Source: Gammaproteobacteria bacterium
Lineage (GTDB): Bacteria > Pseudomonadota > Gammaproteobacteria > S012-40
Length of the DNA: 64,000 nt
Direction: 5' to 3'
Assembly (NCBI GenBank): GCA_029884425.1
Contig: JAOUHV010000004.1
Coordinates: forward strand, 1 to 64,000
Part shown: in pieces, positions 50,281 to 57,393 of the stretch
Layout of the letters: every line of letters starts with the position of its first letter
Position numbering within the stretch: position 1 is the first letter of the stretch
Notes under the pieces: generated by a model
Seen by the model: only the letters and a program-made list of their open reading frames with translations
The model's database searches: none
What the model was told of the DNA's origin: nothing
Made by a program: the position numbers and the translations under genes

Positions 50281-51132
50281 TCAGCGTAGATGCAGAAAGG
50301 CAAGACAATCATCGCTCAGGCTGTCGTAGGCTTTTTGCAGAATAGCCTGTTCCATCTCAGGGGTTAAGTGGGCTTTACCATCGCCACTTTGACCTTTGCG
50401 AATGAAACCGTAAGGCTTAAACGCTGGCTTTCCTTGGCGCAGCATCATGAAGCGCGACGCGTTCTGCTTCATCCAGGCGAACGAGGCGAATTCTGTGGCG
50501 CGTTGTTTCTGGGCATCGGTCAGTTCCCAGTCCAGGAAGTGCAAAATTTTCTCGATGTTGGCCGAAAAGTCAGTCAGCAAATCTTCATAACGCAGTAACA
50601 GCACATTGTCCTGGTTGCGATGTGGCCACCAGCTGGATACGTTGCGATACCAGGAACCAAATCCCAGCCATTTTTCAACGTGCTGCTCAAGAGACGAGGG
50701 GACGGGAATATTGTGCGCCTCGCGCGCTTCGTCAGTCATATCGCGAAGATGATGATAAAAACTGACGCAACAGTCGCGAGGATCGCGAAAAGTTAAAATG
50801 ATTCGCGCGATGTCAGCGCCTGGAGTTTGCTCGTAAGTGCAGTGAGTTTTGAACAGGCGCGGGTTGCTCATCTGTTCCAGTTGCTGTTGGCGCTGCGCCT
50901 GGGTTAATTCTGGGCGCGGAAATTCCAGCCAGGGAACGACATCGTCAATGTTGCTGAATGTGTCATCGCCACCTGTGCGTAGTTGATGGAGTATTTGTTG
51001 CATCCAGGTGGTGCCGGCTTTGGGGCCGGTGGTGATTAACACGTCGGTTGCTCTGGGCTGAAAATTGGCCAGCGTGTAGGGATCATGGGTGGGATCGGGT
51101 TGTCCCCACTTGGGGTCGATGGTGGTGTTCAT
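50281..51132 (-). CDS. PAPS-dependent sulfotransferase
   Basis: 283 residues from ATG at 51132 (GGAG six bases upstream). The frame continues open for another 957 bases on this strand, but that part is antisense to the CysG-like gene and is not used. DVLITTGPKAGTTWMQQILHQL is the 5'-phosphosulfate loop (usual PKSGTTW, here with Ala), THCTYEQ and TFRDPRDCCVSFYHHL are the 3'-phosphate site, and FIRKGQSGDGKAHLTPEM resembles the RKGxxGDWK motif of cytosolic sulfotransferases. Acceptor unknown; the closest resemblance is to aryl/amine and steroid enzymes. It is divergent from a CysG-like gene, both linked to sulphur. Confidence 0.9.
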   Translation of the reverse strand: MNTTIDPKWGQPDPTHDPYTLANFQPRATDVLITTGPKAGTTWMQQILHQLRTGGDDTFSNIDDVVPWLEFPRPELTQAQRQQQLEQMSNPRLFKTHCTYEQTPGADIARIILTFRDPRDCCVSFYHHLRDMTDEAREAHNIPVPSSLEQHVEKWLGFGSWYRNVSSWWPHRNQDNVLLLRYEDLLTDFSANIEKILHFLDWELTDAQKQRATEFASFAWMKQNASRFMMLRQGKPAFKPYGFIRKGQSGDGKAHLTPEMEQAILQKAYDSLSDDCLAFLHLR

Positions 51133-51177
51133 GATGGTCTCCAGCGAAAAAAGCAGCAGCCTAGTGTGCACCATTGG

Positions 51178-51209
51178 CATTGTTCCGTCGACTGAATAAC
51201 GGGACAATG
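51178..51209. promoter_or_regulatory. Imperfect palindrome in the sulfotransferase / CysG divergent promoter region
   Basis: CATTGTTCCGT and ACGGGACAATG are 11-base inverted arms with one mismatch, ten bases apart, in the 106-base region between divergent starts. Its symmetry and position suit a regulator operator. Confidence 0.5.
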
Positions 51210-51238
51210 TATGTGTTCGAATGAGTATTGGGTGAGCG

Positions 51239-52264
51239 ATGGAATATTTTCCGATTTTTTTGCAACTGACGCAGCAGCGCGTGCTGGTGGTGGGCGCTGG
51301 TGATGTGGCCGCACGCAAAGTGGGGTTGTTGCTCAAAGCCGGTGCAGATGTGTTTGTGGTTGCACCACAATGTTGCGGCGCGATTCTGTCATGGCGTGAT
51401 CGTGGTGAAGTTAGCGTGGCAATGCGCACGTTTTGCGTGGATGATTTGCACGGCGTGGCTTTGGTGATTGCGGCGACCAACGATGCGAATATCAATGCGC
51501 AGGTTTCTGAGCTCGCCAAACAGCGGCATTTACCGGTGAATGTGGTGGATAGTCCGGCGCTGTGCAGTTTTGTGATGCCGGCGATTATCGATCGCTCGCC
51601 GTTAATGGTTGCGGTGTCCAGTGGTGGCAGTGCGCCGGTGCTGGCCAGAATGCTGCGCGCACGTCTGGAGGCATTGATCCCAATGCAATACGGGCGATTG
51701 GCGCAGTTGGCGGCGGTGTTTAGACAGCAGGTGAAAGATAACATTGTCAGCATGGCGGGGCGGCGGCGATTTTGGGAAAGTGTTTTTGAAGGGCGAATTG
51801 GCGGACAGGTGCTTGCTGGTGGTGATATTTCCCAGGCAGAGCAGCAAATCGCGCAACTGTTAAGTGCAACTGATCCTGCGTTGTCGGGCGGGGCGCAGTT
51901 GACGGTGATCGGTATTGGTTCCGATGATGTAGAAATGCTAAGCCTCAAGGCCAGTCGGGAAATGCAAAAAGCCGATTGGGTGTTTGTGGATGAGCAGGTT
52001 GATGAAGTTATCGTGGAGTGGTGTCGTCGCGATGCGCAGCGACAACGGGTTAGCGAGCCTAATTGGCAATACTGGGCAGACCTGGCCAAAACAGGAAAGC
52101 GAATTGTTTATTTAACCATCGCCGATGTCGCCACGCTGCAGATTGAGTTGCGCGAACCACAACTCAATCTGCTGATGATTCCAGCAACACCGACGGCGAT
52201 GAGTCATGAGGCATCGAACGGCGCAGGTGATGGTTGGCAGCAGTTAATGCGATCGGATCATTAA
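51239..52264 (+). CDS. CysG-like siroheme synthase with a shortened methyltransferase domain
   Basis: 341 residues. The first 200 match the CysG N-terminal half (Met8-like precorrin-2 dehydrogenase/ferrochelatase): EYFPIFLQLTQQRVLVVGAGDVAARKVGLLLKAGA, VVDSPALCSFVMPAIIDRSPLMVAVSSGGSAPVLAR, and a dimerisation helix. From about 218 a methyltransferase start is seen (AQLTVIGIGSDDVEMLSLKASREMQKADWVFVDE), but the chain ends about 120 residues later without the GGDPF and later SAM-binding motifs. It is thus about 115 residues shorter than E. coli CysG (457). It may only oxidise and chelate iron, with methylation done by a separate SUMT. Confidence 0.88.
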   Translation: MEYFPIFLQLTQQRVLVVGAGDVAARKVGLLLKAGADVFVVAPQCCGAILSWRDRGEVSVAMRTFCVDDLHGVALVIAATNDANINAQVSELAKQRHLPVNVVDSPALCSFVMPAIIDRSPLMVAVSSGGSAPVLARMLRARLEALIPMQYGRLAQLAAVFRQQVKDNIVSMAGRRRFWESVFEGRIGGQVLAGGDISQAEQQIAQLLSATDPALSGGAQLTVIGIGSDDVEMLSLKASREMQKADWVFVDEQVDEVIVEWCRRDAQRQRVSEPNWQYWADLAKTGKRIVYLTIADVATLQIELREPQLNLLMIPATPTAMSHEASNGAGDGWQQLMRSDH

Positions 52265-53253
52265 TCGAAGCGTGTTTTGTCGCGTGATTGCCAAAGTTGT
52301 CGCGCCAGCGCCAATGCCGCATCGGCCGTTTTTTCCCGCTGCAGAGTGATTAGCGCAATGGCGCAAGTGCCAATGATGGCAGCTTCGCCGTATTCGTCTG
52401 CGCGTGAGCCCTGCCAAACTTGTTTCAGTTGTGACACATCCATGCTTTCGTTTTTGACGTGGCGCTTGCTAAACATGGCTGGCCAGTGGGTGATGCTGTC
52501 GACGCCCTGATTGACGGCATAGATTTCACAGTCGGCATCGGGATTGAGTTCAGCTTCACCGCCTTCGCCTTTGAACACGCAGCTGTGTTTGTCGCCCAGC
52601 AGCAGCGAGGCTTGCTGATGAATGCGTTGGTAACCTGGGTGAAATATTCCCTGCATAGAATGCGCGGCGTTGCCCGGATTGAGCATTCTGGCGACGGTGT
52701 GCACCGGCGAACGCAGTCCGAGGATGGGTTTGTAGTCGATGATTTGTTGCAAACGCGGTGCGAAAACATCCAGTGGCAGGTAGGCGAAATTGTGCTGCTG
52801 CAGATCGTTGGCCGCCGCTGCAATGGAATGGGCTCTGGAAAGTCCGAAGTGGGGTAGCACGTCTTCGCTGTAGATTCGTCCTGGCGTGTGCGGGCTGGAA
52901 CCCTGCATCAAAACGCGAATGCCGTGCCCAGCCAGCAAAAAGGCACTGAGCATGTACCAGGGAAGTTGGCGGCGCTTGCCGGCATAGCTCGACCAGTCCA
53001 GATCAACAGGGGGCAGGGCCAGCTTGCCAGTGGTGTCGCGGTTGGCCTGGACAAAACCGGCAACTTCTTCGGCGGATTCCTCTTTGACGCGTATCAGCAT
53101 CAAAAAGGCACCTAGCTGCATGGGGTCGACGGCGTCATTGAGTATCATCTGCATCGATTCGCGGGCTTCATCCAGGGTCAGGCTGCGACTGCCATTTTTT
53201 CCTTTACCCAGGATGCGGATATAGGGGGCGAAGGGATGCTCGGTATCGGTCAT
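52261..53253 (-). CDS. ybiB: TrpD2/YbiB-type anthranilate phosphoribosyltransferase-like protein
   Basis: 330 residues. It has the TrpD-like fold order, with helical N-terminal LTLDEARESMQMILNDAVDPMQLGAFLMLIRVKEESAEEVAGF, but the PRPP site GTGGD is replaced by LAGHGIRVLMQG and further on LLGDKHSCVFKGEGGEAELNPD. YbiB proteins bind DNA and are not known to make anthranilate phosphoribosyl compounds. Its 3' end overlaps the CysG-like gene by four bases in converging orientation; cysG-ybiB neighbours are known in several Gammaproteobacteria. Confidence 0.9.
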   Translation of the reverse strand: MTDTEHPFAPYIRILGKGKNGSRSLTLDEARESMQMILNDAVDPMQLGAFLMLIRVKEESAEEVAGFVQANRDTTGKLALPPVDLDWSSYAGKRRQLPWYMLSAFLLAGHGIRVLMQGSSPHTPGRIYSEDVLPHFGLSRAHSIAAAANDLQQHNFAYLPLDVFAPRLQQIIDYKPILGLRSPVHTVARMLNPGNAAHSMQGIFHPGYQRIHQQASLLLGDKHSCVFKGEGGEAELNPDADCEIYAVNQGVDSITHWPAMFSKRHVKNESMDVSQLKQVWQGSRADEYGEAAIIGTCAIALITLQREKTADAALALARQLWQSRDKTRFD

Positions 53254-53552: not shown

Positions 53553-56039
53553 GTGTATAACGAGTTTTACGGTTTTAAATCGCTGCCATTTCGTCTGAAT
53601 CCTGATCCGGAATTTTTCTTCGGCAGCCAGGGGCATAAGCGAGCCCTGTCCTATTTGCGTTATGGCTTGAGTCAGCGCGAAGGGTTCATTGTGGTCACTG
53701 GTATGCCGGGTACCGGTAAAACGACGCTGGCGCGCGAACTTCTGACCGAAATTGGCCGCGACAAGGTCATTGTCGGCGAACTCAATACCACTCACCTGGA
53801 AGCTGATGATGTGCTGCGGATGGCCGCTGCGTCGTTTGGTATTTCCCACGAAAACGTTCCCAAAGCGACGTTGCTTAATCGTCTGGAAAATTTCTTCCTG
53901 ACGAAATATCGCGCTGGCTACCACTGCCTGCTGCTGATTGATGAGTCACAAAATCTCCCCGTCGATTCATTGGAAGAATTGCGGATGTTGTCCAATTTCT
54001 ACCACGGCAAACACGCGCTGCTGCAGATTTTTCTGCTGGGCCAGCAGCAGTTCCGTGATGTTTTGCAGCGCCCGGATATGGAGCAGTTGCGCCAGCGGGT
54101 GGTGGCAGCGACCCACCTTGAGCCCATGGACAAGGATGAAACCCACAATTACATTTTGCATCGCCTGCGGGTAGCCGGTTGGCAAGAACGTCCGGTGGTG
54201 ACGTCGCGTGCACTGGATATGGTGTTCCTGCTGACGCGGGGCGTGCCTCGTCGCATCAATACCTTCTGTGATCGTCTGTTTTTATACTCGGCGCTGGAAG
54301 AACTTTACGAAATTGATACCGACGCGGTGCGTACTGTGGGCCGCGAATTGATGCTCGAAACTGAGCATCCGGATCGAGCCAGTCAGATTGATTCGTTGCA
54401 GACGGTCAGTGCCAGCCAGTTGGAATATGCGCGCAATGAGCTGACCAGCGCCATTGATAGCAGCATGCTTGAGACGACGGATGATCGCACGCCGCCGCCT
54501 GTTGGCCTGCGCTTGGTCAGCGGAGGTAACGCTTCGGCGTCGACGATGGCCATGCCTCGTCAGGATGTGGTGGTGGTTCCCTTCGACGAAACGAACCCGG
54601 ATATCGCGATTGTTGCCGTGCTGCAGGCATTGCTTGATGGCCAGCAGCCCGCCCTGGAGCCCATGCCCGTCTACATGACGGTGTTGCTGGAGCTGGCGCT
54701 GGGCAAGCAGTCGTTGGCGGTGTTCACCAAAGGCTTGTTGACCAATGAGCAGCGAGAGCCGCTGGGTGATGCGTTGCGTGCCTGCTTTAAGCAGCAGTTG
54801 CTGGAAAAGAGCAGTGACTATTATCGTCGATTGGCGATAGACACCTCGGCAGACGCTGAAAAAATTAAAAATCACTATCGCTACATGTTCCGCCTGTTCC
54901 AGGTTGAACAGGAGCGTGACAAACAACATTGGGATAGCACCTATATTCGCCGGATCAATCAGGCCTACGCCACCTTGCGCAACGATGAGGGGCGAGCGAA
55001 GTATGATGCGTTCCTCGCGAGCGTAGGCAAATTGCCGGATTCCGAGATGGCAGGCAATGCCACCGCAACGCCAACGGCGGCGGATGCTGTACCTGTGGTG
55101 GAGTCTGTCTCGACGTTGCGGCCTGCGACCGTGGGATCGCCGGTGATGATGTCGCAATTGCCGCCGCCACCACAGGAAATTATTCCCGAGCCGGTCGAGC
55201 AAACGCCTCCTCCCATGGCTAGTTCCGGCAATAAGGGTGGAGACTGGAAAAAGCGGGTTTCAGCGGTGGGGTTGGTTCTGTTGTTTGCGGTGGTTGGTGG
55301 TGTGAGTTACTTTTTTGAAAGTGACTGGGCGGATAGCGTCAAAAGTGACTTGGCGCGGGAAACGTCGTTGGAAGTTGCCGGGTTGGCGCCAGCGGGTGAT
55401 GCGGTTGGTGGCAGCAACGCTACCCCCATTCAGCGTTTGCCCGTGGAAGAGTTGGATGCAGCCAATGCTGCTCCGGCGGTAGCTGATAAACTACCTGAGA
55501 ATCCGGATCAAAAAGCTGCAATGGTTGCGGAGCCTGCGATCCCTGCGCCAGTGGAACCCAAAGCGGAGGTTGAAAAACCTGCCAAGCCTGTGAAGGAACC
55601 CAAGCCGGCGGCAGCCAAAGAGTCAGCGGCAAAGCCAGAGAAGCCAGTTAAACCGGCCAAGCCAGAACCTCAGCCGGTAACTGTGCAAGAGGTTGAGCAG
55701 TTGGTGGATGAATTCCGTGCGGCTTACGAGAATGGTGATTTGCGCAGCTTCATCAGCTTGTTTGCCACGGAAGCCCGGACCAATGACCGGCGTGGGGTTG
55801 ATCAGATCTCGGCAGATTACCGTTCACTGTTTGAGAGCACGTCTTTCCGGCGGTTTGATTTGAACGACATGCGTTGGAATCGCAGCATCGGCCAGGTTGA
55901 GGGGCGGGGACGCTTCCTTGTTCGGGTTGTGCGCGATGATAACAGCAAGCTTAAAACTTTTGAGGGCGATCTTCAGGTCAGTTTGCGTATTCAGGACGGC
56001 GAACTGAAGATAACTCGCTTCGATTACAGCTACAAATAA
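53553..56039 (+). CDS. Membrane-anchored XrtA/ExeA-type AAA ATPase with J-like and NTF2-like domains
   Basis: 828 residues from GTG at 53553. Residues 1-270 match the secretion ATPase family of ExeA and especially the XrtA/PEP-CTERM-associated type (MYNEFYGFKSLPFRLNPDPE, GHKRALSYLRYGLSQREGF), with Walker A GMPGTGKTT at 50-58 and Walker B LLLIDESQN at 126-134. At 420-490 lies a DnaJ-like segment (YYRRLAIDTSADAEKIKNHY ... INQAYATLRNDEGRAKYDAF) without the HPD. One membrane helix (about 569-588) follows, then a Pro/Ala/Lys-rich linker (600-708) and a 118-residue NTF2/SnoaL-like end (EQLVDEFRAAYENGDLRSFISLFA...). So the ATPase is cytoplasmic and the C-terminus periplasmic. Role unknown. Confidence 0.85.
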   Translation: MYNEFYGFKSLPFRLNPDPEFFFGSQGHKRALSYLRYGLSQREGFIVVTGMPGTGKTTLARELLTEIGRDKVIVGELNTTHLEADDVLRMAAASFGISHENVPKATLLNRLENFFLTKYRAGYHCLLLIDESQNLPVDSLEELRMLSNFYHGKHALLQIFLLGQQQFRDVLQRPDMEQLRQRVVAATHLEPMDKDETHNYILHRLRVAGWQERPVVTSRALDMVFLLTRGVPRRINTFCDRLFLYSALEELYEIDTDAVRTVGRELMLETEHPDRASQIDSLQTVSASQLEYARNELTSAIDSSMLETTDDRTPPPVGLRLVSGGNASASTMAMPRQDVVVVPFDETNPDIAIVAVLQALLDGQQPALEPMPVYMTVLLELALGKQSLAVFTKGLLTNEQREPLGDALRACFKQQLLEKSSDYYRRLAIDTSADAEKIKNHYRYMFRLFQVEQERDKQHWDSTYIRRINQAYATLRNDEGRAKYDAFLASVGKLPDSEMAGNATATPTAADAVPVVESVSTLRPATVGSPVMMSQLPPPPQEIIPEPVEQTPPPMASSGNKGGDWKKRVSAVGLVLLFAVVGGVSYFFESDWADSVKSDLARETSLEVAGLAPAGDAVGGSNATPIQRLPVEELDAANAAPAVADKLPENPDQKAAMVAEPAIPAPVEPKAEVEKPAKPVKEPKPAAAKESAAKPEKPVKPAKPEPQPVTVQEVEQLVDEFRAAYENGDLRSFISLFATEARTNDRRGVDQISADYRSLFESTSFRRFDLNDMRWNRSIGQVEGRGRFLVRVVRDDNSKLKTFEGDLQVSLRIQDGELKITRFDYSYK

Positions 56040-56069: not shown

Positions 56070-56088
56070 AGCAGCATTGATTGCTGCT
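56070..56088 (+). terminator. Hairpin after the ATPase gene, weak terminator
   Basis: AGCAGCA, five bases, TGCTGCT: a perfect 7-base stem 31 bases beyond the stop, followed only by TCATTG. Confidence 0.35.
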
Positions 56089-56128
56089 TCATTGATCGTT
56101 AGGGTGGTCAAAACTGGTCTCGTGTCCG

Positions 56129-56157
56129 TAGACACTTTAGTCTGGATTGCGTACAAT
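56129..56157 (+). promoter_or_regulatory. Predicted sigma70 promoter for carAB
   Basis: TAGACA (56129-56134), 17 bases, TACAAT (56152-56157). Both boxes match consensus at five of six positions. The leader to carA would be about 93 bases. Confidence 0.7.
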
Positions 56158-56256
56158 CCCGGCACCGAAACGGTCGCATATAAGACAAGCGAATTTTTGA
56201 CGGGGGGTTCCAGTGTTGGATACCTCCCGTTTTTGCACGTATACATGGGGGATACC

Positions 56257-57393
56257 TTGAGGCAGCCAGCCATTCTTGCCCTTGAAGACGGTAGCGTCTT
56301 CCACGGGGTCTCTATTGGTGCAGAAGGTCACACGGTCGGTGAAGTGGTATTCAACACCGCGCTGACTGGTTATCAGGAGATTTTGACAGACCCTTCCTAT
56401 TGCCGCCAAATTGTCACGTTGACTTACCCGCATATTGGTAATGTCGGTGTCACCAGCGAGGACGCGGAAAGCCCTGGCGTATATGCCGCGGGCTTGGTCA
56501 TTCGCGAATTGTCGCCTATCGTTAGTAACTGGCGCAGTGAACAGTCATTGGATGCGTATCTGAAAGAGCGCAACGTGGTGGCGATTGCAGATATCGACAC
56601 TCGTCGTCTGACACGCCTGCTACGCGAAAAAGGTGCGCTCAATGGCTGTATTATGGCCGGTCCCAGGTTGAATCCTGACGGCGCACTGGCCAAAGCCAAA
56701 TCATTTACCGGTCTGCAGGGCTTGGATCTTGCGCAGGTAGTGACCACCGAAGAAAAATACGAGTGGTTGGATGGCGTATGGGCGCTGGGTGAAGGTCATC
56801 CGCACATGGCGAAGAAGGATTTGCCGCACCATGTTGTCGCGTTCGACTACGGCGTGAAGCGCAATATCCTGCGTCTGCTGGTGGATCGTGGCTGCCGTGT
56901 GACGGTTGTGCCCGCTAAAACGCCCGCAGCTGAGGTGTTGAAGCTCAAGCCAGACGGCGTGTTTTTGTCCAATGGCCCAGGCGATCCTGAACCCTGCACG
57001 TACGCTATCGAAGCGATTCGCCAGATCTTGGAAACCAAAACTCCTGTGTTTGGCATTTGCTTGGGGCATCAGCTGTTGGCGTTGGCCAGTGGTGCCAAAA
57101 CCGGCAAGATGAAGTTTGGTCATCATGGTGCCAACCATCCGGTGCAGGATTTGGAAACCGGGCAGGTGATGATTACCAGCCAGAACCATGGTTTTGCGGT
57201 GCTGGAAGAAAATCTGCCAGCGAATTTGGTGGCTACGCATCGTTCGCTGTTTGATCAAACCCTGCAGGGGATTCGCCGTACCGACGTGCCTGCATTCAGC
57301 TTCCAAGGACATCCCGAAGCCAGCCCGGGTCCACACGATGTGGAAATGCTGTTTGATCGCTTTGCCGACATGATTGTGGCGCACAAGGCCTAA
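56257..57393 (+). CDS. carA: Carbamoyl-phosphate synthase small subunit
   Basis: 378 residues from TTG at 56257 (GGGGGA upstream, family start [16 protein letters not shown]); ATG at 56245 is an alternative, and the frame is open to 56077. The N-terminal domain has [21 protein letters not shown], the C-terminal amidotransferase has [13 protein letters not shown] with the nucleophilic Cys and [14 protein letters not shown] with His/Glu. It makes ammonia from glutamine for CarB. Ends 30 bases before carB. Confidence 0.96.

Follow-up and report, generated by a model that had tools for sequence, protein, structure and literature searches.

The gene at positions 53553 to 56039 of the window (the entire 64,000-nucleotide stretch of DNA that was analyzed) encodes an inner-membrane protein in which an ATPase, a J-like domain and an NTF2-like domain are joined in one chain, and the genomic association of this gene with EPS export is strong. 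Literature searches found no published description of the ATPase-J-TM-NTF2 architecture, and the possibility raised in the first-pass annotation that it had already been reported was thus not borne out.

Domain composition and conservation

The gene is a single ORF devoid of internal stops. Its GTG start fits the M-Y beginning of almost every orthologue, and conservation in ten other genera led us to reject an ORF artifact. Its parts are listed in Table 1.

Table 1. Parts of the gene and its immediate neighbors, in window coordinates
Feature	Position	Strand	Basis or remark
YbiB/TrpD2-like gene, upstream	52261..53253	-	synteny marker, outside the system
Whole gene: ATPase, pre-J helices, J-like domain, membrane helix, linker, NTF2-like domain	53553..56039	+	828 aa
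Cytoplasmic AAA ATPase, residues 1-270	53553..54362	+	TIGR03015 (XrtA/PEP-CTERM system-associated ATPase)
Pre-J helical region, residues 346-420	54588..54812	+	alignment; AlphaFold helices
J-like domain, residues 421-489, HPD replaced by QVE	54813..55019	+	PF00226, profile, AlphaFold/Foldseek
Membrane helix, residues 569-587	55257..55313	+	hydropathy; flank charges
Ala/Pro/Lys/Glu-rich linker, residues 591-704, probably periplasmic	55323..55664	+	composition; sequence not conserved
NTF2-like domain, residues 705-828, probably periplasmic	55665..56036	+	AlphaFold, Foldseek
carA, downstream	56077..57393	+	synteny marker, outside the system; true start probably further in

The ATPase carries Walker A (GMPGTGKT) and Walker B (LLLIDE) motifs, and TIGR03015 matches residues 1 to 267 at 339.3 bits, above the curated cut-off of 324.5. 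By alignment, the pre-J region is common to the stand-alone J-TM-NTF2 proteins described below. The Pfam DnaJ model PF00226 scored 28.3 to 32.6 bits on the J region (cut-off, 27.8), a profile of this region built from 16 relatives matched DnaJ chains of the PDB at E = 3e-17, and an AlphaFold model (pLDDT, 86.6) yielded J domains or J-containing chains as all of its top 35 Foldseek matches, with probabilities of 0.98 to 1.00. The E values of those matches are modest (0.04 to 0.7) because the J part makes up less than half of the model. The HPD triad is missing, the sequence there being LFQVEQ, and a functional DnaJ identity was rejected because of this loss.

Hydropathy analysis found a sole membrane helix, whose flanking charges (+1/-3) fit a cytoplasmic N terminus and a periplasmic C terminus, the topology that we infer for the protein in the cell. 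The linker of about 115 residues contains 23% Ala, 16% Pro, 11% Lys and 11% Glu. Single-sequence Pfam searches with the C-terminal domain returned only weak matches (SnoaL_2, E = 0.0075; Cds6_C, E = 0.084), and the corresponding domain of one relative reached the SnoaL_2 cut-off (28.2 bits versus 27). The AlphaFold model of its 124 residues has a pLDDT of 93.4, and the leading Foldseek matches are NTF2-like folds, the best being 3soy (E = 3.3e-8); the domain therefore shows the cone-shaped alpha+beta fold of the NTF2-like superfamily. No Pfam peptidoglycan-binding domain matched the C-terminal fragment, and an ordinary ExeA with such an end was rejected on that basis. The first-pass annotation had proposed this domain reading, including a J-like stretch without HPD and an NTF2-like C terminus, and it proved right in every part; the peptidoglycan-binding domain of ExeA that it had named as the finding that would overturn it did not appear.

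The conservation of domain order across species, which it had named as support, was also observed, as orthologues from ten other genera of the window genome's family (f1) have the same order, in proteins of 820 to 1101 aa. TIGR03015 matches fell below 1e-30 in 11 of 11 orthologues. Identity to the ATPase of the window protein is 61 to 70% in nine of ten orthologues and 38% in the other (G007); across the ten it ranges from 26 to 64% for the J region, 26 to 35% for the NTF2 domain and 5 to 29% for the linkers. With the domains conserved and the linkers variable, selection thus acts on the domains rather than on the spacers. Two further families share this order, one represented by G310 and G207, whose proteins have two NTF2 copies, and the other by G086 and G213. 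The fused proteins at L160:8273-11956 and L161:7147-10416, which have two tandem NTF2-like domains, lie beside YjbH-type and multi-SLBB polysaccharide export genes. A broad contig scan with the window protein retrieved only ATPase-domain relatives, from other phyla and aligned to residues 1 to about 275. The class survey tally of 343 genomes includes ordinary DnaJ proteins and is not a count of this architecture; genes may also be missed in draft genomes.

Several known systems share parts of this organization. As in TIGR03015 ATPases, the ATPase domain scores over the curated cut-off and the genome carries an exosortase/PEP-CTERM system; a tree of ATPase domains, in which some branches are long, places the fused group next to the ATPases of XrtA loci at moderate support. 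However, the TIGR03015 members observed in XrtA loci end soon after the ATPase (328 to 434 aa in L074 and L073), whereas the window protein, encoded outside an XrtA locus, continues with the pre-J, J-like, membrane-helix and NTF2-like parts. We know of no established function for the exosortase-associated ATPase. ExeA/GspA of type II secretion systems (T2SS) similarly combines a cytoplasmic AAA ATPase, a single membrane helix, a long linker and a periplasmic C-terminal domain, but the window protein has an NTF2-like domain in place of the peptidoglycan-binding one, an additional J-like domain and no adjoining T2SS gene. DjlA-type proteins, in which DjlA is linked to capsule control via Rcs, also tether a J domain to the inner membrane; the window protein differs from DjlA by the loss of HPD, the added ATPase, the domain order and the presence of a periplasmic domain. 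Finally, Csd6/Cds6-type proteins (PF24125) have an NTF2-like fold at the C terminus of an envelope protein, but the sequence match is weak (13.6 bits, against a gathering cut-off of 27) and an enzyme domain like theirs is missing from the window protein.

Gene neighborhoods of the relatives

Orthologues are found within EPS operons. In G003 the gene order is Wza, Wzc, the fused ATPase-J-TM-NTF2 gene, a TPR protein gene, a FecR-like gene, Wzy and CapC. The same order from Wza to Wzy surrounds the fused gene in G009, where CapC was not detected, and in G012 the gene occurs with Wzc, TPR, Wzy and CapC. In a second family its neighbors are YjbH, a polysaccharide exporter with multiple SLBB domains and a Wzz-like protein; this was seen in G310 and, judged by identical order, in G207.

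Three architectures contain the NTF2 domain, namely ATPase-J-TM-NTF2, J-TM-NTF2 and ATPase-TM-NTF2. In six genomes of other Gammaproteobacteria (G027, G296, G112, G327, G079 and G190), the gene immediately following Wzc codes for a J-TM-NTF2 protein without ATPase, and the same TPR, FecR-like and Wzy genes usually come next. Orthologues and stand-alone forms thus follow Wzc directly in Wzx/Wzy EPS operons, which encode Wza and the BY-kinase Wzc; to our knowledge, the Wza-Wzc machinery as described for E. coli includes no J-like/NTF2 component. A minimal form is found on Bradyrhizobium plasmids, where a 219-aa J-TM protein with an intact HPD is encoded between Wzc and a homologue of the same TPR protein (TPR match, E = 3e-31), with an O-antigen ligase adjacent. 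The EPS operon of G112 also encodes a secreted single-domain NTF2-like protein of 176 aa (L166:11098-11628), which supports a periplasmic site for the NTF2 domain. As the genomes are related, none of these neighborhood counts are independent.

ATPase-TM-NTF2 proteins without J domain are encoded in the window genome (contig 53) and in eight others, followed by genes for a secreted protein predicted to be barrel-like and for a large lipoprotein; in this set, the N terminus of the G139 protein is cut by the contig end and the barrel protein of G034 was not matched. The three-gene cassette is conserved; it lies at L049:14071-18521 in the window genome and also in L066, L065, L165, L168, L169, L170, L171 and L177, and comprises the ATPase-TM-NTF2 protein, a secreted protein of about 200 aa resembling a small outer-membrane barrel, and a lipoprotein of 600 to 1400 aa with an LPxxRP-like start. 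Beyond weak Ig-like matches, no family was found for the last two. In L062 and L063, a J-TM-NTF2 gene replaces the ATPase near the barrel-like and lipoprotein genes.

The window gene in its own genome

The window gene itself is flanked by housekeeping genes and lies outside any EPS or XrtA locus, with YbiB and carA adjoining, whereas the orthologues of G003, G009 and G012 are inside such loci. A YbiB-like gene is upstream of the EPS operon holding the orthologue in G009 and G012, and carA is downstream of the orthologue in G007 too. From these synteny markers, it is plausible that the window gene became an orphan secondarily, by moving away from a former EPS operon.

None of the other window ORFs matched the EPS, exosortase and MrtJ query models used, in agreement with the first-pass annotation, which saw no exosortase or EPS gene in the window. 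Its suggestion that the protein may act without that system was based on the window alone and is not supported: orthologues are inside EPS operons or beside MrtJ, and the window genome combines an exosortase locus with nine PEP-CTERM sites over the cut-off and an EPS export locus of the Wza-Wzc-Wzy type (contig 5). On contig 24, the exosortase accompanies a TIGR03013 glycosyltransferase (572.9 bits; cut-off, 393.35), PrsK (716; 300), PrsR (724; 503) and PrsT (452; 312). It passes the general exosortase cut-off (128 versus 105.6) but misses that of XrtA proper (170.6 versus 208). MrtJ and JDVT-CTERM proteins were not found in this genome. It encodes three TIGR03015-like ATPases; the contig 53 paralogue is below the TIGR03015 cut-off, and that of contig 52 is far more distant.

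Proposed function and alternative readings

The explanation that we favor, and hold to be somewhat likelier than an even chance, is that the protein is a single-pass inner-membrane ATPase that assembles or energizes polysaccharide export, and coupled surface-protein export, in a manner similar to ExeA/GspA but suited to an EPS/exosortase setting. What speaks for this role is the company that the gene keeps in the operons of relatives, the proximity of MrtJ in six f1 genomes, the exosortase, PEP-CTERM and EPS genes of the window genome, the tree position of the ATPase, and the precedent of ExeA, which combines an AAA ATPase, one helix and a cell-wall-binding domain in the periplasm and which secretin assembly requires (PMC4098917). 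In the cytoplasm, the ATPase, which belongs to the exosortase-locus subfamily, would form a ring and change shape with ATP. The J-like domain, unable to trigger Hsp70, might offer a docking site to a partner in the cytoplasm, for example a Wzc-type kinase. The helix and linker would bring the NTF2-like domain toward the cell wall, where it may bind glycan or an export component and thereby position or open the trans-envelope exporter. The orphan window copy probably still serves EPS genes located elsewhere in the genome. Its position next to no EPS or sorting gene and the XrtA-proper score of the resident exosortase count against this explanation, as does the failure to find an exosortase in G005 and G011, which both have the fused gene, or either exosortase or MrtJ in G207.

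In the simplest history, a membrane J protein of EPS operons would have gained an NTF2 domain and been combined with an ATPase of the exosortase type, and its coupling to Hsp70 would have been lost. A broader proposal, which we advance tentatively and consider doubtful as a whole, is that Wzx/Wzy operons of Alpha- and Gammaproteobacteria hold an undescribed membrane J protein after Wzc, initially an Hsp70-linked exporter regulator; in several lineages, the acquisition of a wall-facing NTF2 domain and an exosortase-type ATPase together with the loss of HPD would have turned it into an Hsp70-independent trans-envelope motor common to export and sorting. The assembly of the Wza/Wzc exporter through the wall and its cytoplasmic control are not fully known, and an ATPase, a J-like and a periplasmic domain in one protein, with stand-alone forms in the same operon slot, would connect chaperone-like control with polysaccharide export and surface-protein sorting in a way that can be tested.

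Might the protein instead serve surface-protein sorting, by exosortase/PEP-CTERM or MrtJ/JDVT-CTERM, helping to deliver or process sorted proteins through the wall rather than exporting polysaccharide? We regard this as unlikely, even though MrtJ is a close neighbor in six of the seven f1 genomes having both genes: it lies within 5 kb of the fused gene in G002, G003, G004, G005, G007 and G011, with a chance of about 0.2 to 0.4% per genome. Exosortase or MrtJ is present in all 12 f1 genomes with the fused gene (a C-terminal piece in G010), and G006, which has neither, also has no fused gene. Exosortase is found in 14 of 19 module-carrying genomes versus 12 of 43 sampled class genomes outside f1 (Fisher P = 0.0017), the 19 having been picked for carrying modules, the 43 including a few carriers and the sampled genomes being related. 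As exosortases and EPS loci travel together, this enrichment cannot separate sorting from export. Conversely, the gene is kept without MrtJ in the window genome, G008, G009 and G012, and G207, G206, G376 and G181 hold fused or stand-alone modules with no exosortase or MrtJ over the cut-off. Both MrtJ, absent from the window genome, and exosortase, not found in G005, G011 and G207, were thus rejected as obligate partners. A working co-chaperone, with the J domain bringing DnaK to membrane sites of EPS or envelope proteins, is very improbable. The J fold is well supported, and a DnaK/DnaJ system has been tied to polysaccharide secretion in cyanobacteria (PMC9239167). HPD is retained in the stand-alone relatives of G027, G079 and G376 (the last a longer ORF on a GC-rich contig, with an unsure N terminus), as in the Bradyrhizobium protein. 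However, HPD occurs in none of the ATPase-fused proteins examined. In most fused members of f1 the motif is QPD, and in the window protein it is QVE. QPD corresponds to H33Q, a single substitution that is enough to abolish J function with DnaK and BiP in the DnaJ proteins tested (PMC1906734). Together, the fused and stand-alone forms provide a natural series in which the loss of coupling to Hsp70 can be followed.

It is also rather improbable that the window copy, after leaving the operon, took a different role, for instance as an orphan sensor of the envelope or as a factor assembling some other machine, such as MSHA pili or the barrel/lipoprotein cassette. Its housekeeping neighbors, its QVE motif, decayed beyond that of most orthologues, the second ATPase-NTF2 gene of its genome with a cassette of its own, and, in that genome, an MshM-like ATPase encoded next to an MshL-like secretin (names assigned by eye) would fit such a change. 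The high identity of its ATPase to those of most orthologues, including those in EPS operons, argues against it, as do the low score of the contig 53 paralogue and the distance of the contig 52 ATPase.

Several loci merit mention in their own right. In L054, L055, L056, L057, L059 and L060, MrtJ, the JDVT-CTERM sorting protease, is encoded close to the ATPase and at a distance from its JDVT-CTERM targets. A target in the gap between the two genes was rejected, since no convincing ORF is there and JDVT-CTERM proteins are encoded elsewhere in those genomes; these loci differ from the two-gene neighborhood of MrtJ and its target described in PMC11980579. In the window, the C-terminal half of the minus-strand ORF 50281-52089 reads by eye as a cytosolic-type sulfotransferase (TGPKAGTTW start); a siroheme-synthase-like gene runs over the first half on the opposite strand, and the true start is therefore probably inside the ORF. 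On contig 46 of the same genome, L050:7027-8553 encodes a third NTF2-ended membrane protein, of 508 aa with an Ala/Glu/Lys-rich middle, and adjoins the gene of a Sel1/ankyrin-like protein.
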